Shown: piece after piece, positions 1,961 to 25,383 of the stretch
Position numbering within the stretch: the stretch's first letter is position 1
Layout of the letters: every line of letters starts with the position of its first letter
NCBI RefSeq assembly: GCF_037996645.1
Contig: NZ_JBBMXV010000001.1
Location: 190,168 to 254,167 of the forward strand
Length of the DNA: 64,000 nt
DNA from: Halalkalicoccus tibetensis
Lineage (GTDB): Archaea; Halobacteriota; Halobacteria; Halobacteriales; Halalkalicoccaceae
Reading direction: 5' to 3'
Notes under the pieces: model-generated
Seen by the model: the letters and a program-made list of their open reading frames with translations, nothing else
Databases searched by the model: none
Told to the model about the DNA's origin: nothing
Position numbers and translations under genes: made by a program

Positions 1961-3220
1961 ATGGTCACTAATCATCAGAGGCAGAGCAGTATTGAAGGGG
2001 AATCATCCAACGAAAATCCGAGCCGACGAACGTATCTCCGTTCGGCGGGCGGGGCCACGTTGGCCGCGGTCCTGGCCGGCTGTCTGAGCGGTGTCGGCGA
2101 CGAGGAGGAGGGTGGAAACGGCGGTGGCGGGGAGGCGGAGTTCACCGTCGGGGAGATCGCGAACGAGGAGAACAACTGCATGGGCTGTGTCTCGCCGACG
2201 CCATCGTTCGAGCTGCCCGATCGGATCGACGAGGAGTCGGACGGTTCGGTGACGATGAACCTCCAGCCCGAGAACCAGGTCTGTGACACCACGGACTGTG
2301 GGTCGAACGTCGAGAGCAACGTCATCGCGGCGGGATACGCTTCGATCGGGAACTCCACGGCCTTCTTCCCCGAGAACCAGATCTGGCTCGTCCCGTACAC
2401 GTTCCCCTCGCGCGAACAGCTGTCCTATACGCTGTTCCACGAGGAGTCCTGGGAGAACTACTGGGTGCCGTTCGCCCGGAAGTACAACGTCATCCCGTTC
2501 TACACCTGGACGCCGGAGCTACGCCAGGTAATGATCTCGGAGGACGCGACCGAGGAGCTCGACGGCGAGGAGCTCAGACGGCCCGAGCAGCTAGAGGGGC
2601 TGACGATCCGCCGGACCGAATCGCGCGTCGCGGACGTCTCGCTGTCGACGTGGGGCGCGAGCCCGACCGAGGTCTCCTGGGAGGACACCGTTCAGGGGAT
2701 GGAGACCGGCGTCATCGACGGGCTGGAGACGTGGTCGTCGGTCGCCATCGGAGCCGGTATGGGCGAGGTCATCGACCAGGTCGTCGACATCGATTTCAAA
2801 TGCGGTCAGGGCGTCCTATGGGCGAACACCGACTGGCTGCAGGGCCTCTCCGAGGACCAGCGCGGGGCCATCGCCGACGCCACGCGGGACATGACCGAGG
2901 AGGCCGTCCATATCGCCGACGACGTGATCGACGAGCGCGTCGGTCAGCAGGACCCGCCGCCGGAGGGATCGTCGTGGGACGAGCTGGACGTCACGGTGAA
3001 CATCCTCGACGACGACGAGCTGGCCGCCTGGCAGGAACCGCTCGACCCCCAGGAGAACCCGGACCTCTGGGAGCCCGAGCGGGACCTGATGGAGGAGCTC
3101 GAGGCGCCCGACGACTTCTACGACACCATCTACGAGACCGCACGTGAGGACGAGGCGCCCGACTCCCCCGAGGAGTTCACGATCGACGCGTGGTGGGACG
3201 ACTATCTCGATGAGATCTGA
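1961..3220 (+). CDS. TRAP transporter substrate-binding lipoprotein (DctP family), Tat-exported
   Basis: Periplasm-equivalent solute receptor of a TRAP transporter. From the ATG at 1961 the protein has a twin-arginine signal (SRRTYLR), a hydrophobic stretch and a lipobox ending LAGC, then a Gly/Glu-rich linker and the DctP fold; the usual late motif region is seen around GVIDGLETWSSVA. It is followed by the small and large TRAP permeases. Unusual are extra cysteines in the mature part: a CxxC (NNCMGC), a CxxxxC (CDTTDC) and a single FKC. An in-frame start near 1895 would add 22 residues ahead of the Tat motif and is less natural. The ligand is unknown; organic acids are typical of the family. 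Confidence 0.9.
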   Translation: MVTNHQRQSSIEGESSNENPSRRTYLRSAGGATLAAVLAGCLSGVGDEEEGGNGGGGEAEFTVGEIANEENNCMGCVSPTPSFELPDRIDEESDGSVTMNLQPENQVCDTTDCGSNVESNVIAAGYASIGNSTAFFPENQIWLVPYTFPSREQLSYTLFHEESWENYWVPFARKYNVIPFYTWTPELRQVMISEDATEELDGEELRRPEQLEGLTIRRTESRVADVSLSTWGASPTEVSWEDTVQGMETGVIDGLETWSSVAIGAGMGEVIDQVVDIDFKCGQGVLWANTDWLQGLSEDQRGAIADATRDMTEEAVHIADDVIDERVGQQDPPPEGSSWDELDVTVNILDDDELAAWQEPLDPQENPDLWEPERDLMEELEAPDDFYDTIYETAREDEAPDSPEEFTIDAWWDDYLDEI

Positions 3221-15605: not shown

Positions 15606-15629
15606 GTGCGGTTCGATTCCAACTCGAAA

Positions 15630-18600
15630 ATGAGTGAAAAACGATTTCAGCAGGGCTACGAGGGCTCGAGCCGACGTGGCTTCCTCGGCGGGGTCGGGGC
15701 GCTCGTCGCCGCGGCCGCCTACAGCCGGGATGTACCCGCCGCGGTGGCCGCACGGGTCACGAACGAGGAGGACGACGCCGTCCAGCGCGTCGAGTCGCCC
15801 GACGGCTCGATCTCGGTGACGGTCGATGTCTCGAACGGCGTTCCGAGCTACGAGGTCGTCTGCGACGGGACGACCCGGATCGGCCCCTCGACGCTGGGCT
15901 TCGATTTCCGAAACCAGCCGGCGTTCGGCGCCTCGGTGGAGGGTGAGGACGGGGCCACCCTCGAGGTGACCGGTAGCGAGCGCGAGTCGGCCACCGAGGA
16001 GTGGGAGCCCGTCTGGGGCGACTTCGAGCAGGTCTCAGCCGACTACGAGTCGCTGATCGTCGGGCTGGAGGAGGTCGAGGGATCGGGCCGGTCGGCCAAC
16101 TTGGAGGTCCGGGTCTTCGACGACGGCCTGGGCTTTCGCGTGGTCCTCGATGAGGAATTCGCGAGCAATTCGGACAGAGCGATCGTCACGAGCGAGAACA
16201 CCAGCTTCGACTTCGACGGCGACCACACCGCGTGGTGGATCCGAAACGAGGTCACCAACCCGCGGTTCGAACAGGAGTACACCGAGTCGCCGCTCTCGGA
16301 AATTCCCGGCGGCACCCGCGAGACCCGACCGACCGGAACCGAACTCAGAAACGGGGTGCACACGCCGCTGACCGTCGACGCCGAGGACGTCTACCTGAGC
16401 GTCCACGAGTCGAACCTCGACGACTACGCCGCGGCGACGCTCGCGCCCCGTTCGGAGGACGGGGGAACCAGGTTCACGACCGAGCTCACGCCCCTGCCCG
16501 ACGGGTCGAAGGTCTCCCTCGAACTTCCGAACGCGACCCCGTGGCGGACGATCCAGGTCGGCTCGACCCCGGGCGACCTGATCGAGTCCCAGCTGATCCC
16601 CCTTCTAGCCGACCCGCTCGAGGAGTCGGCCCTGCCGACCGTCGACGGGGAACCCGACACGGACTGGATCGTTCCCAGGAAATACGTCGGGATCTGGTGG
16701 ACGATGATCGCCGGCTCCGCGAACTGGGAGTACCGCCCCGACGACTCCTTCGAGAGCCCGGAGGAGGCGGCCGGATACATCCACGGCGCTCGGACGGAAC
16801 GGATGAAACGGTACATGCGGTTCGCCGACGAGAACGGCATCGACAGCGTGCTCGTCGAGGGCTGGAACGAGGGCTGGGACACCTACCCCGGCGACGGCTC
16901 CGGACTCGAGTTCGGCGTCGACGACTCCTATCCGGACTTCGACGTCCGGGAGGTCGCCGAGTTCGGCGCCGACCTCGACGGGGTCGAGATGACGATGCAC
17001 AACGAGACGGCGGGGAACCTCCCGAACTACGAGGACCAGATCCTGAACGACGACGTCTTCGAGCAGTACGAGGACGTGGGGATCCACTCGATCAAGAACG
17101 GCTACGTCTCGGATCCGGGGCTGGGGATCGACGGTGACGGCTCCGAGCCGACCCACAACCAGCACAACCAGCTCGCGGTCAACCACCACCGGCTCGTGAT
17201 CCGGGAGGCCGCGGCCAACCGCCAGCTGCTCGAGATCCACGAAGGGATCAAGCCGACCGGCGAGCTGCGCACCTACCCCAACGTCGCGAACCGCGAGGTC
17301 GTCACCGCCCAGGAGTTCGACGGCTTCGACCAGCTGAGTTCGAACGTCGGACGGGAGCACCACGTCACGATCCCGTTCACGCGGAACCTCGCGGGGCCGG
17401 TGAGCTACCAGCCCGGTATCTTCGACATCACGTTCAACGACGACCGGGGCGATCAGGTCCAGACGACGCGGGCCAAACAGCTCGCGATGTACCCGAACTA
17501 CCTCAGCGGACTGCAGATGGCCGCCGACAGGATGGAGGCGTACGTCAGCAGCGAGTTCGAGGTCGGCGAGCTCCTCCAAGCCGCGTCGGGCGAGCTCGAC
17601 GGTATGATCACGCTCGACGAGTGGCGAAACGCCTTCGGAACGAACGCCGTCGCGGTCGATCCCAACCGCGTTCCAAGCGGGTCGTCGGTCTCCTTTACCG
17701 TGCGGGACGTCGAGTCGGCGGGCGCCTACGACCTCCATCTCCGCTACGCGAGCGCACCCGAGGACAACGCCGAGCGCGTGATCGAGGCCGGCGGACCGCG
17801 GGCGACCCTCCGTGTCGACGACGGCTCCGAAACGATCGAGCCCGAGTTCACCGACTACTGGGACGAGTGGGAGGTGTTCACGACCGAGGTCGAACTCGAG
17901 GCCGGCGACAACGAGATCGCGATCGAGCTGAACTACGACGCCGGCGAGACCTTCGAGGGCGACGTTGGCGGGTTTAATCTCAACACGATCGCCGTCACCG
18001 AGGTCGGCGAGGACTCACCGGTTCCGGCCGAGTACGAGGGCTACACGCCCGAGAACGAGAACTTCGACGCGGAGCCGGAGTTCGCGTTCATCGAGGAGGT
18101 GCCGATGGACTGGGACGAGACCCGCGTTGTCGAGTCGCAGGTCGGCGAGTACGTCGCTACGGCCCGACGGTCGGGCGAGAAGTGGTATGTCGGCGCGATG
18201 ACCGACGGGAACGGGCGCGCGATCGATGTCCCCCTAGAGTTCCTCGCGCCCGGTAAGTCGGGTGGCGCCGGGCAGGGCAACCGCCAGGGACCGAACTACG
18301 TCGCCGAGATCTACTCCGACGAGGTCGGCGCCGGCGTCGATAGCGATCCCACCGGCGTGCGGATCGACGAGGCGATCGTGAACCCGAGCACGACCCTGCT
18401 CGCTTCGATGGCGCCGAGCGGCGGGACGGCGGTCCGACTCCGCCGGGCCCGCGGCGGCGAGATCAACGAGCTCCCCGACTACGAGCGCCCCGAACAGGAG
18501 CTCGCCTACTCGGTCGATTCGGAGGCCGGCCTCGGCGAGCCCGTCGTCTCCGCCACCGGCTCGAACGACTCCGCGTTCGTCGGCGGGACGACCGTCGAGA

Positions 18601-19439
18601 TCGAGATCGACGGGGAGCTCGCGGCCGTCGACAACGTCCGGCTCCCGCCGGGCGCCGACGACGAGACCGTCGATCTCGGCTTCTCGATCGGCTCGATCGG
18701 GAGCTACGATGTCGTCGTGCGCGACCCCGGGGACGGAAGCGAGCTCGCGTCGGGGACCGTCACCGTCGAGCCCGGTGAGTTGATCGCCGAACTGGATGAC
18801 CCCAGTGGCGACGACCACGGCCCCGGTGAGTACGTCTACCCGACCGACGACGCGTTCGAGGACGGCGCCTTCGACCTCCTATCACTGGGCGTCTACGAGA
18901 CCGACGAGGAGTTCCGCTTCGCCTTCGAGGTCGAGAACCTCTACGACACCTTCGGCGGGGAGTTCTCGCCCCACTACTTCCTGCTTTACCTGCGTGATCC
19001 CTCGCGCGAGGACGGACGGACGAGTGAACTGGGCGACCTCGAGCTCACCGCCGAGTTCGCCGAGGAGTGGCACTACCGGGTCGACGCGAGCGGGTTCGGC
19101 CGGGGCCTCGTCGACGCCGAGGAATCGGAGCTCGCTACACCAGGGACGTTCGTCGACTTCGCGAGCGATACGGCGATCGTCTCGGTCGCGAAGGACGCGC
19201 TCGGCGACCTGGACGTCGGCGAGGCCGAAGTCGCCCCGATCGTCGGGAGCGAGGACAACGGGATCCTCCGCCCGGTCGGCGTCGAGGCCGAACCCTTCGT
19301 CTTCGGCGGTGCGCGCGAGGATGCGGTCGAGAACGCCCCGCGGATCGTCGATCTCGCGACGCCCGCGGGCGTCGACCAGTCCGAGGCACTCGCATACGAC
19401 GCCGAGTCGCTCGCGACGGTGCCGTTCACACCGCTGTAG
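15630..19439 (+). CDS. Secreted multidomain glycoside hydrolase family 97 enzyme (alpha-glucosidase/alpha-galactosidase family)
   Basis: Hydrolyses alpha-linked sugars outside the cell. The 1269-residue protein has a Tat signal (SSRRGFLGG), a GH97 N-terminal beta domain (about 55-330), the TIM-barrel (about 340-640), an inserted beta-sandwich module like a CBM (about 673-795), the GH97 C-terminal domain (about 820-940), and a final domain resembling the SLH-like C-terminal module of glucodextranase (about 1050-1269). Against Bacteroides SusB as I remember it, the four catalytic/calcium glutamates are present at about 459 (HNETAG), 538 (IHEG), 556 (NRE) and 562 (AQEF), with matching 18- and 6-residue spacings. 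That favours the inverting alpha-glucosidase type. The ATG at 15630 precedes the Tat motif closely. Confidence 0.9.
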   Translation: MSEKRFQQGYEGSSRRGFLGGVGALVAAAAYSRDVPAAVAARVTNEEDDAVQRVESPDGSISVTVDVSNGVPSYEVVCDGTTRIGPSTLGFDFRNQPAFGASVEGEDGATLEVTGSERESATEEWEPVWGDFEQVSADYESLIVGLEEVEGSGRSANLEVRVFDDGLGFRVVLDEEFASNSDRAIVTSENTSFDFDGDHTAWWIRNEVTNPRFEQEYTESPLSEIPGGTRETRPTGTELRNGVHTPLTVDAEDVYLSVHESNLDDYAAATLAPRSEDGGTRFTTELTPLPDGSKVSLELPNATPWRTIQVGSTPGDLIESQLIPLLADPLEESALPTVDGEPDTDWIVPRKYVGIWWTMIAGSANWEYRPDDSFESPEEAAGYIHGARTERMKRYMRFADENGIDSVLVEGWNEGWDTYPGDGSGLEFGVDDSYPDFDVREVAEFGADLDGVEMTMHNETAGNLPNYEDQILNDDVFEQYEDVGIHSIKNGYVSDPGLGIDGDGSEPTHNQHNQLAVNHHRLVIREAAANRQLLEIHEGIKPTGELRTYPNVANREVVTAQEFDGFDQLSSNVGREHHVTIPFTRNLAGPVSYQPGIFDITFNDDRGDQVQTTRAKQLAMYPNYLSGLQMAADRMEAYVSSEFEVGELLQAASGELDGMITLDEWRNAFGTNAVAVDPNRVPSGSSVSFTVRDVESAGAYDLHLRYASAPEDNAERVIEAGGPRATLRVDDGSETIEPEFTDYWDEWEVFTTEVELEAGDNEIAIELNYDAGETFEGDVGGFNLNTIAVTEVGEDSPVPAEYEGYTPENENFDAEPEFAFIEEVPMDWDETRVVESQVGEYVATARRSGEKWYVGAMTDGNGRAIDVPLEFLAPGKSGGAGQGNRQGPNYVAEIYSDEVGAGVDSDPTGVRIDEAIVNPSTTLLASMAPSGGTAVRLRRARGGEINELPDYERPEQELAYSVDSEAGLGEPVVSATGSNDSAFVGGTTVEIEIDGELAAVDNVRLPPGADDETVDLGFSIGSIGSYDVVVRDPGDGSELASGTVTVEPGELIAELDDPSGDDHGPGEYVYPTDDAFEDGAFDLLSLGVYETDEEFRFAFEVENLYDTFGGEFSPHYFLLYLRDPSREDGRTSELGDLELTAEFAEEWHYRVDASGFGRGLVDAEESELATPGTFVDFASDTAIVSVAKDALGDLDVGEAEVAPIVGSEDNGILRPVGVEAEPFVFGGAREDAVENAPRIVDLATPAGVDQSEALAYDAESLATVPFTPL

Positions 19440-19520: not shown

Positions 19521-20759
19521 ATGCCACGTGCGCTGGTCGTCGCCGACGACCTCACCGGCGCGACCGACACCGCCCACGCGTTCGCCAAGCGGGGCTACGG
19601 GACGACGGTACGGGTCGATCCCGACTCCGAGCCCAACGCGTCGGTCCTCGCAGTCAACACCGACTCGCGCTATGCCGACCCGGAGACGGCCGCAGAGCGG
19701 GTCCGCCGGGTAGTTCGAGGGACCGACGCGCCGGTCGTCTACAAGAAGGTCGACTCCACCCTTCGTGGAAACGTCGCAAGCGAGGTCGACGCCGCCATGG
19801 AGAGGTTCGACCGCGGGCTGTTCGCCCCCGCCGCGCCCGCAGTCGGCCGGCTCACCGCCTGCAGCCACCACCTCGTCGACGGCTGCCTGTTGACCGACAC
19901 CGAGTACGCAAACGATCCGAACCCGCCCGCGAGCGCCCGCCTGCCGGCGCTGTTCGAGGGGCTGGATCGACCCGTCCGTCACCTCGGGATCGGGGCCGTC
20001 GCCGCCGGTCCCGACGCAGTTCGAGGGGTACTCGATGACGTTCCTCCGGGGTCGGTGATCGCCTGCGACGCGACCCACGAGCGCCATCTCGTGGCGATCG
20101 CCCGTGCCGGTCGGGAGTCCGATCGCCGCCCGCTCTATGCCGGCAGCTCGGGCCTCGCCGAACACGTCGCCGTCCCGGGCGAGCCCGACCGAAAGCCCGG
20201 CTTCGAGTACGCCGCGGGCGGCGCGCTGGGGGTCGTCGGGAGCGTCAGCGAACGCTCGCTCGAACAGCTCGCTGCGCTCCCCGAGGAGTGGGTGATCGCG
20301 ATCGGGCCCGAGGAGCTGCTTTCCGATCCCGAGGGCGCGGGACGGGAGGCGGGTCGGCGGACCGCCGATCGCCTCGCGGCCGGCGAGCACGCCGTCGTCA
20401 CGGCCGCTCCGGATCGCGAGGCGGTCGAGCGGACCCTCGAACTCGGCCACGAGCGCGGGCTCGACGGGGAGGCGATCCGGGAGCGGGTCACGGCGGCGCT
20501 CGCGAGCGCGGCGCGTGCGGGGTGCGGGGAGGCGGCGGGGCTGTTCGTCACCGGTGGGGACATCGCGATGGCCGCCTTCGACGCGCTCGGCGTCCGGGCG
20601 CTCTCGCTTTCGGGCGTCGAAGTCGAGGCGGGCATCCCCGTGAGCCGTCTCGATGGAGGGTGTGCCGACGGGCTCCCGGTCGTCACGAAAGCCGGCGGGT
20701 TCGGGAGCGATGCAACGGTAATTAACTGCCTGCGGGCCCTCGGTGGCGACCATGAGTGA
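19521..20759 (+). CDS. Four-carbon acid-sugar kinase (DUF1537/OtnK-DtnK family)
   Basis: Phosphorylates C4 sugar acids (D-threonate, D-erythronate or related) on O4 with ATP. The 412-residue protein has the N-terminal substrate domain (VVADDLTGATDTAHAF near residue 6; VYKKVDSTLRGN near 74) and the C-terminal nucleotide-binding domain ending GLPVVTKAGGFGSD, all hallmark DUF1537 motifs. It overlaps the next gene, a PdxA2-like dehydrogenase, by 8 nt; that pairing is the known DtnK-PdxA2 / DenK-PdxA2 arrangement. The ATG at 19521 is chosen because it leads directly into the substrate domain. Which acid is used cannot be read from sequence. Confidence 0.92.
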   Translation: MPRALVVADDLTGATDTAHAFAKRGYGTTVRVDPDSEPNASVLAVNTDSRYADPETAAERVRRVVRGTDAPVVYKKVDSTLRGNVASEVDAAMERFDRGLFAPAAPAVGRLTACSHHLVDGCLLTDTEYANDPNPPASARLPALFEGLDRPVRHLGIGAVAAGPDAVRGVLDDVPPGSVIACDATHERHLVAIARAGRESDRRPLYAGSSGLAEHVAVPGEPDRKPGFEYAAGGALGVVGSVSERSLEQLAALPEEWVIAIGPEELLSDPEGAGREAGRRTADRLAAGEHAVVTAAPDREAVERTLELGHERGLDGEAIRERVTAALASAARAGCGEAAGLFVTGGDIAMAAFDALGVRALSLSGVEVEAGIPVSRLDGGCADGLPVVTKAGGFGSDATVINCLRALGGDHE

Positions 20760-21774
20760 GCCCACGATCGGGATCACGATGGGCGATCCGGCGGGGATCG
20801 GCCCGGAGGTGATCGTCAAGGGGTATCGCGAGCTTCGGGAGACGGCCGACGTGCTGGTGATCGGCGACGCCGATGTCGTCGAGAGCGCCCGCGAGGTCTG
20901 TGGGTCGGACCTCGGGATAGAACGGGTCGGCTCGCCCGACGAGGCCTCGTTTAGGGACGATCGAATCCCCGTCCTCGATCTGGACAACGTCGCGGAGCTG
21001 GAGCGGGGCGTCGTCCGCGAGGAGTACGGCGAAGCGAGTCTGGAGTATATCGAACGGGCGATCGAGCTCGCCCAGTCGGGGGGGATCGACGCGATGACGA
21101 CCGCCCCGATCAACAAACAGTCGACGAAGCTCGCCGGCAGCGACTACGCGGGCCATACCGGGATGCTCGCCGACTACACCGATACCGAGAACTACTCGAT
21201 GATGCTGATCGAGGGCCCCCTTCGAGTGACCCACGTCAGCACGCACGTCCCGCTGCGGGAGGCCTGCGACCTCGTGAGCGAGGAATCGGTGCTCGATACC
21301 GTTCGCGTGACCGACGAGGCGCTGCGCGAACTCGGGATCGACTCCCCGACGGTCGCGGTCGCGGGGCTGAACCCCCACGCCAGCGACGGGGGGTTGCTCG
21401 GCGAGGAGGACGGCGCGGAGATCGAGCCGGCGGTCGAGCGGGCTCGCGAGGAGGGGATCGACGCCTTCGGGCCGGAGTCGCCCGACACGATTTATGTGGG
21501 GGCGGCCCGCGGGGCCGCCGACTGCGTGGTCTCGATGTACCACGACCAGGGTCACATCCCGATCAAGATGCTCGGCTTCGCGGAGGGCGGTGCGGTCTCG
21601 GGGGTCAACGTCACCATCGGCCTGCCGATCATCAGGACGAGCGTCGACCACGGCACCGCCTTCGATATCGCGGGCGAGGGGATCGCGAGCGAGAAGAGCC
21701 TGCTCGACGCCGTCGAAGTCGCGAGCGGGATGGCGCGGGAACGGACGCGCGTCGAAGCGGGTGAGGGGGTATGA
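20752..21774 (+). CDS. PdxA2-like 4-phospho-D-threonate/4-phospho-D-erythronate dehydrogenase
   Basis: NAD-dependent oxidative decarboxylation of the phosphorylated C4 acid to dihydroxyacetone phosphate. The 340-residue protein shows GITMGDPAGIGPEVI at the N-terminus, MTTAPINKQ, AGHTGMLAD, the metal-binding His in THVSTHVPLREA, and MYHDQGHIPIKML; the GHIPIK form is more like PdxA2 than the vitamin B6 enzyme PdxA. The start at 20752 overlaps the kinase gene by 8 nt and its stop overlaps the next ATG by 4 nt (ATGA), so the three genes form a tight operon. A PLP-biosynthetic role is unlikely here. Confidence 0.9.
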   Translation: MSEPTIGITMGDPAGIGPEVIVKGYRELRETADVLVIGDADVVESAREVCGSDLGIERVGSPDEASFRDDRIPVLDLDNVAELERGVVREEYGEASLEYIERAIELAQSGGIDAMTTAPINKQSTKLAGSDYAGHTGMLADYTDTENYSMMLIEGPLRVTHVSTHVPLREACDLVSEESVLDTVRVTDEALRELGIDSPTVAVAGLNPHASDGGLLGEEDGAEIEPAVERAREEGIDAFGPESPDTIYVGAARGAADCVVSMYHDQGHIPIKMLGFAEGGAVSGVNVTIGLPIIRTSVDHGTAFDIAGEGIASEKSLLDAVEVASGMARERTRVEAGEGV

Positions 21775-23072
21775 ACCTCGAGTTCCCGGACGCGGGGACG
21801 CTGCGGGGCGCCAACGACGTCGAGCGCGACGACCTGCCCCGCTTCGCGCGTGCGACCCGCCACCGCGATCTCGACTCGATCGACGATCTGGAGGGGGCCG
21901 CCCGGGCGGCCGTCGACGACCTCCCGCTCGATTCGCTCGATCCCGGCGCGGAGGTGGCGATCACCGCCGGGAGTCGCGGGATCCACGACATGCCCGCGGT
22001 GCTCGAGGCGGCGGTCGACGAGCTTCGCGAGCGGGGGTTCGAGCCCTCGGTGATCGCCGCGATGGGCTCGCATGGGGGCGCGACCAGCGAAGGGCAACGC
22101 GAGACGCTCGAAGCGCTCGGGATCACCGAGGACCGTTTGGACTGCCCGATCCACACCTCGATGGCGGTTGCGGAGGTCGGAACGGATAGTTTAGAACGGC
22201 CGGTCTACGTCGCCGAGGACGCCCTCGCGATGGACGCGGTGATCCTCGCGAACCGGATCAAACCCCACACCGATTTCCATGGACCCGTCGAGAGCGGGCT
22301 CTGTAAGATCGCCGTGATCGGGCTGGGGAAGCACCGCGGCGCGGAGTCGCTACACAACGCCGGGCTGGCGAGCGATTTCAGCGAGGTCATCCAGGAGCGA
22401 GCCGAGCTGATCATCGAGGAGTGCGTCGTCGGCGGGATCGGGCTGATCGAGAACGCCGCCGACCGGGCGACCCACATCGAGGGCGTTGGTTCGACAGAAA
22501 TCCTCGATCGCGAACCCGAGCTGCTCGACGTCGCCCGGGAGGAGCTTCCCATGCTCCCCGTCGAGGACCTCGACCTCCTCGTGGTCGACGAGATCGGCAA
22601 GGAGGTCTCGGGAACCGGCATGGACACCAACGTGATCGGCCGGGTGCTCTTTCACGGGGAGAGCGAGCCCGATTCCCCGAGCGTCACCCGGATCTACGCG
22701 CGCTCGATCACGCCGGCCTCCCACGGCAACGGCCTCGGGCTCGGCCTCGCCGACTTCGTCCACCGCGACGTCGTCGAGGAGCTCGCACTCGACGACATGT
22801 ACGTCAACATCGCCACCAGCGGCGAGACCTCGCGAGCACGGATCCCCTTTACCGTCCCCGACGACCTGACCGCGCTGATCCTGGCCTGTTCGACCACCGG
22901 CGTCGCGGACCCCGCCGACCTGCGCGTCGCGCGCATCGAGAACACGATGGAGCCCGACGAGCTGCTGGTCTCCGAGCCCGTTGCCCGGGAACTCGAGGGT
23001 CGTGAGGACGTCTCGGTCGGCCCGCTCGAGCCGATCGCCTTCGAGGACGGGGAGTTCGGGCCACCGAACTGA
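21771..23072 (+). CDS. LarA-like DUF2088 protein, putative nickel-pincer (NPN) sugar-acid racemase/epimerase
   Basis: A 433-residue member of the lactate-racemase superfamily, whose enzymes invert the C2 of 2-hydroxy acids using a nickel-pincer nucleotide. Visible landmarks are MGSHGGATSEGQ near residue 100 and KPHTDFHGPVESGLCK near 164, which provide the His and Lys (the Lys that would carry the NPN cofactor), followed by a GLGKHRGAESLHNAG segment with the candidate Ni-ligand His. Its ATG overlaps the PdxA2 stop (ATGA). Genes for the cofactor (larB, larC, larE) are not in the window. In context, inversion of a tetronate or other sugar acid is the simplest role. Activity is inferred. Confidence 0.82.
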   Translation: MNLEFPDAGTLRGANDVERDDLPRFARATRHRDLDSIDDLEGAARAAVDDLPLDSLDPGAEVAITAGSRGIHDMPAVLEAAVDELRERGFEPSVIAAMGSHGGATSEGQRETLEALGITEDRLDCPIHTSMAVAEVGTDSLERPVYVAEDALAMDAVILANRIKPHTDFHGPVESGLCKIAVIGLGKHRGAESLHNAGLASDFSEVIQERAELIIEECVVGGIGLIENAADRATHIEGVGSTEILDREPELLDVAREELPMLPVEDLDLLVVDEIGKEVSGTGMDTNVIGRVLFHGESEPDSPSVTRIYARSITPASHGNGLGLGLADFVHRDVVEELALDDMYVNIATSGETSRARIPFTVPDDLTALILACSTTGVADPADLRVARIENTMEPDELLVSEPVARELEGREDVSVGPLEPIAFEDGEFGPPN

Positions 23073-23122
23073 CTATTACCGCGACGGCAACTCCTTTGGC
23101 CGTGCCCGATCGAGTACGGACG

Positions 23123-24010
23123 ATGAGTTCGATCGACAGTTCGTTCACCGGCGCGTTGTGTCCGATCGTCACCCCCCTCGACGACGGGGAGGTCGACGAG
23201 GAGTCGCTTGCCTCGCTCGCGGAGTTCATTCTGGACGGCGGCGTCGACGGCCTCTTCCCCTGCGGCACCACAGGGGAATTCGCCAGCCTCACACCCGAAC
23301 AGCGCCAGCAGGTGATCGGCACCGTCGCCGAGGCAGCGGGCGACGCGCCCGTGATCGCCGGCGCGGCGGGCACGAGCGTCCCCGAGATCCTCGACCGGAT
23401 CGAGGAGGCGGAAGCGGCGGGCGCGGACGCCGCCGCGATCGTCGGCCCGTACTTCCACACCGCCAACAGCGCCGAGGGGACCCGGCAGTTCTTCGAGGCG
23501 ATCGCCGAGGAGACCGCCCTGCCGCTGTATCTCTACAACATCCCGATGTACGTCGGAAACGAGATCCCCGCCGAAACCGTGGGAGCGCTCGCCGAGCACG
23601 ACTCGGTGCGTGGGATCAAGGACACCAGTGGCGACCTCTCCTACTTCCTCACGGTCGACCGCAAGACGCCCGAGGGGTTCGTCCTCTTCCAGGGTTTCGA
23701 CAGCCTGCTGGTGCCCGCGCTGCGGATGGGCTCGAACGGCGGGGTCCACGCGCTCGCGAACGTCATCCCCGAGGTGTTCGCCGAACTGATCGAGAGCGCC
23801 GACGAGGAGCGGGGCGCCGAGCTCCAGCGCGAGGCGATCGCGCCGCTGTTCGACCTCTGTGCCGAGTACGGCTTCGCGCCCGCGACGAAGGCCGCCCTGC
23901 TCCACCGCGACGTCATCCCGAACGACGAGGTGAAGCCGCCGCTGGTCGCGCTCGATGAGGAGGCCCGCGAGGAGATCGGCGAGGCGGTCGACCGGGCGCT
24001 CTCGGTCTAG
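23123..24010 (+). CDS. DHDPS/NAL-family aldolase, probable 2-keto-3-deoxy-sugar-acid aldolase
   Basis: Class I aldolase/dehydratase barrel of 295 residues. It has GALCPIVTPLDD, the substrate motif GTTGEFASLT near residue 48, YNIPMYVGN with the catalytic Tyr, and GIKDTSGD with the Schiff-base Lys near residue 162. Haloarchaeal proteins of this type act as KDG aldolase or related lyases rather than in lysine synthesis. It lies 50 nt after the LarA-like gene on the same strand, so it likely belongs to the sugar-acid operon and would release pyruvate from a 2-keto-3-deoxy acid. The stop overlaps the convergent GntP stop by 4 nt. Substrate is inferred. Confidence 0.88.
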   Translation: MSSIDSSFTGALCPIVTPLDDGEVDEESLASLAEFILDGGVDGLFPCGTTGEFASLTPEQRQQVIGTVAEAAGDAPVIAGAAGTSVPEILDRIEEAEAAGADAAAIVGPYFHTANSAEGTRQFFEAIAEETALPLYLYNIPMYVGNEIPAETVGALAEHDSVRGIKDTSGDLSYFLTVDRKTPEGFVLFQGFDSLLVPALRMGSNGGVHALANVIPEVFAELIESADEERGAELQREAIAPLFDLCAEYGFAPATKAALLHRDVIPNDEVKPPLVALDEEAREEIGEAVDRALSV

Positions 24011-25383
24011 AAGGGCAGCACCGTCGAGAGCACGAGCACCATCACCAGCCCCGTGATCGACATGATCGTCGCGGTCGCCGAGTAGGTCTTGAACGTCTCG
24101 ACCTGCGTGATGCCGGCGACCTCGCTGATGATCCAGAAGCCGCTGTCGTTGTACCAGGGCGCGATCATCGCGCCACAGCCCACCGCCATCAGCATGTAGA
24201 CCGGGTGGGCCGCCAGCGCGTCCAGCAACGGCGCCATGATCGACGCGCCCGTCAGGATCGCGACCGTCGCCGAGCCCTGCGCGACCCGGATCACCGCGGC
24301 GATCAGCCAGCCGGCGATCAAAAGCGAGATGCCGAGCGCCGCGAGCCCCTCGGCGATGTACTCGCCGACGCCCGCGGCCGCGAGCATCGCGCCGAAGGTC
24401 CCCCCGGCGGCGGTGATCGCGATGATGTTGCCGCCGCTCTTGAGCGCCTCCGTCAGCTCCTCGCTGAACTCCTCACGGTCGCCGATCTCGAGGCGATAGA
24501 GGGTGAACGCCGCCGCCATCGCTGCCGCCGTCAGCGCGAAGTTCGCGTTCCCGACGAAGGTGGTAAGCTGGACGAGCGAACCTCCCTCCGCGAGGACTCC
24601 CTGTTCTGCGAGCGCGTTCGCGATCGTCGAGGAGGCGATCAGCACCACCGGCAGGAGGATCGGCATCCCGGACTCGAACAGACCGGGGAGCTGTGCGGTC
24701 GGGGTTTCTGCCTTCTCCTCGAGGCTCTCGGGAGTCGAGCCCATCGCGTCGCGCAGCGGGAAGTCCTCGCGGCCGTGGAGATAGGTGCCGTAGACGATCC
24801 CCGCGAGCAGCGAGGCCGGCAGCGCGACCATCGCGCCGATCAGGATCGCGAGACCCAGATCGACCCCCAGACTCCCGGCGGCGGCGAGCGGACCCGGCGT
24901 CGGCGGGACGAGCATGTGGGTCGCGAGCGCCCCCGAGGCCAGCACCGAGATGTACAGCGAGTACTTCACGCCGGTCCGGGCCTTCATCGAGCGGGCCAGC
25001 GGCGCGAGCAGGTAGAAGACGTTGTCGAAGAAGACGGGAATGGAGAGGACGTAGCTCGAGCCCAGCAGCGCGTACTCGGAGTTGTCCTCGCCGGTGATCG
25101 AGAGGAAGGCCCGGACGACGCGTTCTGCGGCCCCGCTGTCCATCAGACACTTCCCGATGATCGCCGCCATCAGGATGGGGATCCCGATGTCGACCATCGT
25201 GTCGCCGAAGGCCTCCGCGAGCTCCTCGGGAACGGTCGCGAACGGGAGCTCGGGCGTGGCGATCCCGATCGCCATCGCCGCGAGGATCAGCCCGACGAAC
25301 GCGGGCAGCTTCAGCCAGACGAGCAACAGTACGACCGCGACCACGCCGATCACGAACGGGACGAGCGGGTTCGAGAGTACCAT
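24007..25383 (-). CDS. GntP family gluconate/sugar-acid:H+ symporter
   Basis: A 458-residue membrane permease with about 12-13 helices. Family blocks include GIPILMAAIIGKCLMDSGAA, FDNVFYLLAPLARSM, HMLVPPTPGPLAAA near residue 155 and the C-terminal MIAPWYNDSGFWI (N-D-SGFW is strongly conserved in GntP). It converges on the aldolase gene with a shared CTAG at 24007-24010. Its function as importer of gluconate or other sugar acids matches the catabolic genes next door although it is transcribed from the opposite direction. A TATA box at 25410-25414 is well placed for a leaderless start at 25383. Confidence 0.93.
   Translation of the reverse strand: MVLSNPLVPFVIGVVAVVLLLVWLKLPAFVGLILAAMAIGIATPELPFATVPEELAEAFGDTMVDIGIPILMAAIIGKCLMDSGAAERVVRAFLSITGEDNSEYALLGSSYVLSIPVFFDNVFYLLAPLARSMKARTGVKYSLYISVLASGALATHMLVPPTPGPLAAAGSLGVDLGLAILIGAMVALPASLLAGIVYGTYLHGREDFPLRDAMGSTPESLEEKAETPTAQLPGLFESGMPILLPVVLIASSTIANALAEQGVLAEGGSLVQLTTFVGNANFALTAAAMAAAFTLYRLEIGDREEFSEELTEALKSGGNIIAITAAGGTFGAMLAAAGVGEYIAEGLAALGISLLIAGWLIAAVIRVAQGSATVAILTGASIMAPLLDALAAHPVYMLMAVGCGAMIAPWYNDSGFWIISEVAGITQVETFKTYSATATIMSITGLVMVLVLSTVLPF

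Follow-up and report, generated by a model that had tools for sequence, protein, structure and literature searches.

A predicted nickel-pincer 2-epimerase linked to a D-threonate-type kinase–PdxA operon in haloarchaea and bacteria

D-threonate and D-erythronate are four-carbon aldonic acids (tetronates) that are epimers at C2. A pathway for D-threonate which consists of DtnK, a member of the DUF1537 kinase family, and PdxA2 was reportedly described by Zhang et al. (PNAS, 2016). The route for D-erythronate and L-threonate (DenD or LtnD, OtnI, OtnK and OtnC; Ralstonia, Brucella) also leads from four-carbon aldonates to dihydroxyacetone phosphate (DHAP), and it also uses a DUF1537 kinase. LarA-type enzymes, which include lactate, malate and 2-hydroxyglutarate racemases and the gluconate 2-epimerase GntE, use proton-coupled hydride transfer to invert 2-hydroxy acids at C2. 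Here we analyze a window, the whole 64,000-nt stretch of Halalkalicoccus tibetensis contig NZ_JBBMXV010000001.1, in which a kinase, a PdxA and a LarA-superfamily gene form an operon. Coordinates refer to this window unless another locus is named.

The three genes lie on the + strand and overlap: the kinase gene (19521–20759) by 8 nt with pdxA (20752–21774), whose ATG is at 20752 while the kinase gene ends at 20759, and pdxA by 4 nt (ATGA) with larA (21771–23072), whose ATG at 21771 precedes the pdxA stop at 21774. An aldolase gene follows (ATG at 23123, 50 nt past the larA stop at 23072), and its stop (24010) overlaps by 4 nt that of a convergent gntP gene on the − strand (24007). The open reading frame list and the sequence thus match the first-pass annotation for the positions of the five genes, both overlaps and the gap. 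A congener has exactly the same 8-nt and 4-nt overlaps: in its locus L289, the kinase gene ends at 2070 and pdxA starts at 2063, and pdxA ends at 3091 and larA starts at 3088.

We propose that this operon breaks down four-carbon aldonic acids, the LarA-type protein being a D-erythronate/D-threonate 2-epimerase that feeds the kinase and the PdxA2-like enzyme; from the sequences, we regard this prediction as evenly balanced between right and wrong. The LarA-type protein is assigned to this step because the two acids are C2 epimers, which is the relation that LarA-type enzymes interconvert. PMC11770544 reports that some LarA homologues epimerize 4-deoxy-D-threonate and 4-deoxy-D-erythronate. In the proposed route, GntP would probably import D-threonate and D-erythronate, and the LarA-type enzyme, with its nickel-pincer nucleotide (NPN), would invert C2 by internal hydride transfer, interconverting D-erythronate and D-threonate with a predicted use in the direction of D-threonate. 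The kinase would phosphorylate D-threonate at C4, and the PdxA2-like enzyme would oxidize and decarboxylate D-threonate 4-phosphate to DHAP and CO2. Both epimers would enter one two-step route, the epimerization having no net redox cost, and the operon would probably let the cells also use D-erythronate, by an undescribed route.

The window operon resembles the DtnK–PdxA2 pathway in that the same two families are encoded by adjacent, overlapping genes and the same products, DHAP and CO2, are expected. It differs by its built-in nickel-pincer isomerase, by its haloarchaeal and several bacterial hosts, and by scores that are lower than the D-threonate equivalog cut-offs. Unlike the DenD/OtnI/OtnK/OtnC route, which oxidizes C2, the predicted route would epimerize it, and would involve no 2-oxo- or 3-oxo-tetronate intermediates. 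OtnC (NF043034) has no match in the source genome, which is 97% complete.

The kinase contains the SBD_N (PF07005, 162 bits) and NBD_C (PF17042, 94 bits) domains, in that order, as expected of a DUF1537 four-carbon acid sugar kinase. Its best NCBIfam model is that of D-threonate kinase (NF047819, 228.7 bits for a cut-off of 450), the score being 93 for 3-oxo-tetronate kinase, and its nearest solved sequence is 4xfm (E 3.7e-36). The PdxA protein belongs to the PdxA/PdxA2 family (PF04166, 345 bits; TIGR00557, 356 bits) and scores 289.9 bits with the model of D-threonate-4-phosphate dehydrogenase (NF002891, cut-off 583). Its nearest solved relatives are 4jqp, 2hi1 and 6e85, the last of which is named D-threonate 4-phosphate dehydrogenase. 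The solved relatives of both proteins back the earlier view of the pair as a D-threonate-type route; the pair appears to be D-threonate-like, while orthology to the bacterial enzymes is unproven by the scores.

The lack of the deoxyxylulose phosphate (DXP)-dependent vitamin B6 pathway has been used as a criterion for a catabolic PdxA2 (PMC9997740). PdxJ has no match in the source genome and PdxS was found. According to this criterion, PdxA is therefore catabolic in this genome, and a function in vitamin B6 synthesis is ruled out.

The third protein matches the NCBIfam model "nickel pincer cofactor-dependent isomerase, group 22" (NF052515) with 475.5 bits, above the cut-off of 400. This model carries no assigned reaction. 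The match to Pfam Lar_N is marginal (27.4 bits, cut-off 23.3). The protein had been labeled LarA-like/DUF2088, which is right as to the superfamily but understates its specific membership in group 22. Searches of PDB sequences with the protein and with an 11-sequence profile gave no LarA match. An AlphaFold2 model built from 59 relatives has a mean pLDDT of 93.8, and all 18 PDB matches found with Foldseek at E ≤ 0.001 are LarA-type enzymes (best E 2.1e-11), the likeness of the folds being remote (TM 0.4–0.6).

Four residues, H101, H166, K179 and H195, do not vary at all in an alignment of 161 relatives. The reference used to map them was the Lactiplantibacillus (L.) plantarum LarA sequence, identical to 5huq. 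In a weak profile alignment, H101 and H166 fall opposite the two catalytic histidines, His108 and His174. K179 and H195 are 16 residues apart, which is also the distance in LarA from Lys184, the NPN lysine, to His200, the nickel ligand. The four residues are thus likely to be equivalent to H108, H174, K184 and H200 of LarA, judging from this alignment and spacing. H166 precedes the NPN lysine by 13 residues, compared to 10 for His174 in LarA. With two histidines, the window protein is like the majority of the superfamily and unlike the single-histidine subfamily described in PMC12611868.

The source genome also encodes LarB (C3:239094), LarC (C1:47395) and LarE (C3:231829), all above the cut-offs. 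The window protein therefore has in common with the LarA superfamily the fold, the four catalytic or cofactor residues and the larBCE genes, and its predicted chemistry is of the same 2-hydroxy-acid class. The sequence and the structural model point to a nickel-pincer enzyme of this superfamily, with predicted NPN binding and racemase or epimerase activity. A functional parallel described in PMC7583248 is GntE from Thermotoga and Corynebacterium, which is also a LarA homologue encoded beside sugar-acid genes and also an aldonate 2-epimerase in a catabolic setting. The GntE cases differ in that they concern C6 acids and LarA groups 19 and 20, and in that the contexts given there are gluconate or uronate metabolism and not a DUF1537–PdxA pair.

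The source genome has two other intact group-22 genes and one broken copy. The latter (L101, G000:C12, 6973–7770) is spread over several frames on a small contig, and the adjoining open reading frames resemble sugar ABC transporter genes when judged by eye.

We surveyed 391 Halobacteria genomes and scored the neighbors in 18-kb regions around nearly all PdxA genes. Group 22 is present in 179 genomes, the kinase family in 64 and PdxA in 64. Kinase and PdxA genes are adjacent in 57 cases, in 51 genomes, and a group-22 larA gene is at most 700 bp away for 28 of these 57 pairs (27 of the 51 genomes); in most cases it is downstream and codirectional, in some it is divergent. By chance, less than one such case is expected, according to a rough estimate at about 3 copies per 4-Mb genome. 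The kinase–PdxA–LarA triad spans 12 haloarchaeal genus codes and six family codes; these totals include three loci (L116, L140, L157) which the automatic rule had overlooked.

Two side observations were made in this survey. In one genome the triad is split (L121/L122, G264:C1), pdxA being about 115 kb from the adjacent kinase and larA genes, which suggests function in trans. Haloarchaeal loci that have the pair without larA (L104, L106, L108 and similar ones) repeatedly encode altronate/galactarate-dehydratase-type proteins (10 family matches), as well as IclR regulators.

In bacteria, an 11-sequence alignment was searched against 84,980 prokaryote genomes, which gave at least 576 group-22 relatives, and neighbors were then scored. 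The triad occurs in 20 of the 90 loci examined (80 from the scan and ten from plasmids). The hosts include Rubrobacter, Oceanobacillus, Bacillus, Alkalihalobacillus, Heyndrickxia, Neobacillus, Fredinandcohnia, Clostridia, one Synergistaceae and one Prolixibacteraceae genome, so that outside haloarchaea the triad is found in Actinomycetota, Bacillota, Synergistota and Bacteroidota. Rubrobacter indicoceani has the genes in the same order, kinase-pdxA-larA, with the same 4-nt overlap between pdxA and larA. In Bacilli, the same stretch as the triad contains larE (371 and 373 bits in the two cases tested, cut-off 150), together with genes for a sigma-54 activator of the PrpR type and for a nickel transporter that resembles NicO; either a GntP gene or TRAP transporter genes accompany the triad there as well. 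Since larE and a nickel-uptake gene adjoin the triad, there is independent evidence that the LarA of the triad is a nickel-pincer enzyme.

The cluster is therefore real and conserved, and the functional link of the LarA-like protein with the kinase and PdxA, which the first-pass annotation had assumed, is upheld by co-occurrence across Halobacteria and several bacterial phyla. A chance neighborhood, or a degenerate cluster with no joint function, could be argued from the many kinase–PdxA pairs that have no adjacent LarA and from the broken group-22 copy of the source genome. The co-occurrence data contradict it: the triad recurs in many haloarchaeal genera and several bacterial phyla, and the 4-nt pdxA–larA overlap is kept even in Rubrobacter, which makes this explanation extremely improbable.

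In a tree of 161 LarA sequences, the haloarchaeal triad LarAs fall in one clade (SH-aLRT 99) of 39 rows (34 with the triad, 3 partial, 2 unlinked). This clade is apart from one that contains a gene located beside a DUF4147 kinase and from one linked to mandelate-racemase-type enzymes. Four residues, A229, G296, S317 and R355, are fixed in it and differ in the other haloarchaeal clades. Triad members from bacteria usually have them too (R355: 36/36 and 17/18), and R355 is also present in 25 of 63 unlinked bacterial sequences. As a mark of the triad, these residues are suggestive only.

In the PdxA tree, haloarchaeal loci that have LarA are interspersed with those that lack it. Because the triad LarAs form a clade while the PdxAs do not separate in this way, LarA is an add-on to a constant kinase–PdxA core, around which it was gained and lost, as expected of an extender of substrate range. 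The haloarchaeal PdxAs form their own clade, which gives no support to the idea that the triad was recently transferred as a whole between Rubrobacter and haloarchaea.

Could the LarA instead serve glycerate, pantoate or lactate, and be linked to the pair only through general hydroxy-acid islands? A haloarchaeal group-22 paralogue adjoins a DUF4147 protein, of a glycerate-kinase-type family, and LUD genes, and pantoate-bound forms are mentioned among related TRAP structures in PMC11668362. However, the haloarchaeal triad LarAs are a supported clade of their own, residues such as R355, G296 and A229 set them off from the other clades of haloarchaea and are found in most triad members from bacteria, and the gene overlaps recur in distant phyla. 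We therefore consider such a substrate to be quite improbable. The paralogue in question is that of Haloarcula marismortui pNG700 (L183, 6456–9266), and its clade may correspond to a glycerate racemase feeding a glycerate 2-kinase.

The permease gene of the window (24007–25383, − strand) encodes a GntP-family protein (PF02447, 319 bits, over the cut-off; TIGR00791, 289.9 bits for a cut-off of 292.75). A GntP gene is near kinase–PdxA–LarA in the genus of the window and in one other haloarchaeal genus (g55), and in 5 of the 20 bacterial triad loci. The inclusion of GntP in the original five-gene set thus holds for two haloarchaeal genera and several bacteria. In other bacterial triads, a TRAP transporter is interleaved with the genes. 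The nearest structures of its binding proteins include 4pdd, 4p9k and 4pdh, which are probably D-erythronate complexes. Related closed TRAP structures hold pantoate or erythronate, as reported in PMC11668362. The structure prediction of one bacterial TRAP binding protein was poor (pLDDT 57).

Several observations weigh against the proposed 2-epimerase function. Group-22 LarA is found in many other contexts, including beside a DUF4147 kinase and mandelate-racemase-type dehydratases, and it may be promiscuous. There is no LarA within about 9 kb for 24 of the 57 haloarchaeal pairs, and some bacterial triad members fall outside the main triad clades of the LarA tree. The ligands of TRAP proteins in the PDB are often co-purified, according to PMC11668362. 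Lastly, the kinase and PdxA reach about half of the cut-offs of the D-threonate kinase and D-threonate-4-phosphate models, so that the exact stereochemistry is unproven.

These low scores would fit a pathway of the same class with another stereochemistry or stage, in which the pair acts on another tetronate (of the L-series, or the two D-acids alike) or the substrate of LarA is the 4-phosphate instead of the free acid. Indeed, DUF1537 kinases handle several tetronates (PMC12540250, PMC10580937), and promiscuous LarA homologues epimerize 4-deoxytetronates of both the D and the L series (PMC11770544). On the other hand, the best kinase model and the solved PdxA relatives are D-threonate ones, and no phosphorylated substrate is mentioned in those parts of the LarA literature that were consulted. 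This variant is in our view rather unlikely. The general form of our proposal is that the group-22 LarAs linked to kinase and PdxA are nickel-dependent D-erythronate/D-threonate 2-epimerases, which would provide a third, redox-neutral entry of D-erythronate in haloarchaea and bacteria; we hold it tentatively, with a confidence just short of even.

No description of the triad, of a haloarchaeal tetronate pathway, of a threonate pathway linked to LarA or of the function of group 22 was found in the open-access literature searched, supplementary tables not being covered. The link may already have been seen by others, since the 2020 LarA survey lists, in a supplement, the COGs associated with each group. 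The components all belong to known types, and what is new is how they are combined and the reaction predicted from this. Among the nickel-pincer isomerases, group 22 forms a very large and uncharacterized branch, for part of which the kinase–PdxA operon suggests a definite substrate. If the prediction is true, the few reactions known for nickel enzymes are joined by another, D-erythronate has a new way into central metabolism and, as far as the searched literature shows, haloarchaea have their first described tetronate pathway.

The fourth gene of the operon (23123–24010, + strand) encodes a protein of the DHDPS superfamily (PF00701, 207 bits). It scores 134 bits with the archaeal KDG/KDPG aldolase model (NF040954, cut-off 390) and 183.5 bits with the DapA model (TIGR00674, cut-off 206.15). 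The Schiff-base lysine is in GIKDTS, and YNIPMYVG replaces the YNxPxRT of DapA, with no equivalent of E. coli R138, the arginine that binds the substrate carboxylate. The source genome has six DHDPS-family genes including this one, and the strongest model match among them is another gene. The score, the missing arginine and the stronger match elsewhere rule out that this aldolase is DapA. A 67%-identical paralogue in the same genome (L287, G000:C7, 8664–11930) has as neighbors a mandelate-racemase-type dehydratase, a sugar ABC transporter and an IclR regulator, which is probably the setting of another sugar-acid pathway; a luciferase-like monooxygenase and an SSF symporter are also near. The motifs and the setting of the paralogue point to a 2-keto-3-deoxy-acid aldolase.

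The aldolase is present in this cluster in five of the six members of the window's genus, and is missing in congener G195. Outside the genus, one genome (G276) has a 52%-identical relative upstream of a kinase–PdxA pair that lacks LarA, and in a second (G355) another relative is about 8 kb from a pair. Because the aldolase is almost confined to the genus, the five-gene set, which had been presented as a general haloarchaeal pathway, is a local form of the wider kinase–PdxA–LarA unit. The aldolase is a genus-level addition outside the core.

It had also been suggested that the cluster is a broad funnel, in which LarA would be a promiscuous 2-epimerase, the aldolase would cleave a 2-keto-3-deoxy acid and GntP would import gluconate-like acids. 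The setting of the paralogue, the absence of the DapA arginine and the name of the GntP family, which refers to gluconate transport, are in line with it. However, the cluster has no sugar-acid dehydratase (the nearby ilvD was considered for this role and rejected, since its score exceeds the cut-off for a true dihydroxy-acid dehydratase), and in the loci examined the aldolase accompanies the triad only in the window's genus. A broad funnel is therefore improbable; what is retained of it is the narrower prediction of one extra four-carbon acid gained by C2 epimerization, and not several sugar acids with the aldolase as core.

On the Thioclava plasmid p4 (L283, 4730–7862), pdxA and a DHDPS-family gene share 4 nt, beside a four-carbon acid sugar kinase gene. 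The DHDPS protein is of a different lineage, with 36% identity to the window aldolase, and the pairing of aldolase and PdxA has therefore arisen in bacteria too.

The gene that directly precedes the operon in the same orientation (15606–19439) encodes a GH97 glycoside hydrolase of 1277 aa with a C-terminal Glucodextran_C module, a pairing which looks unusual.

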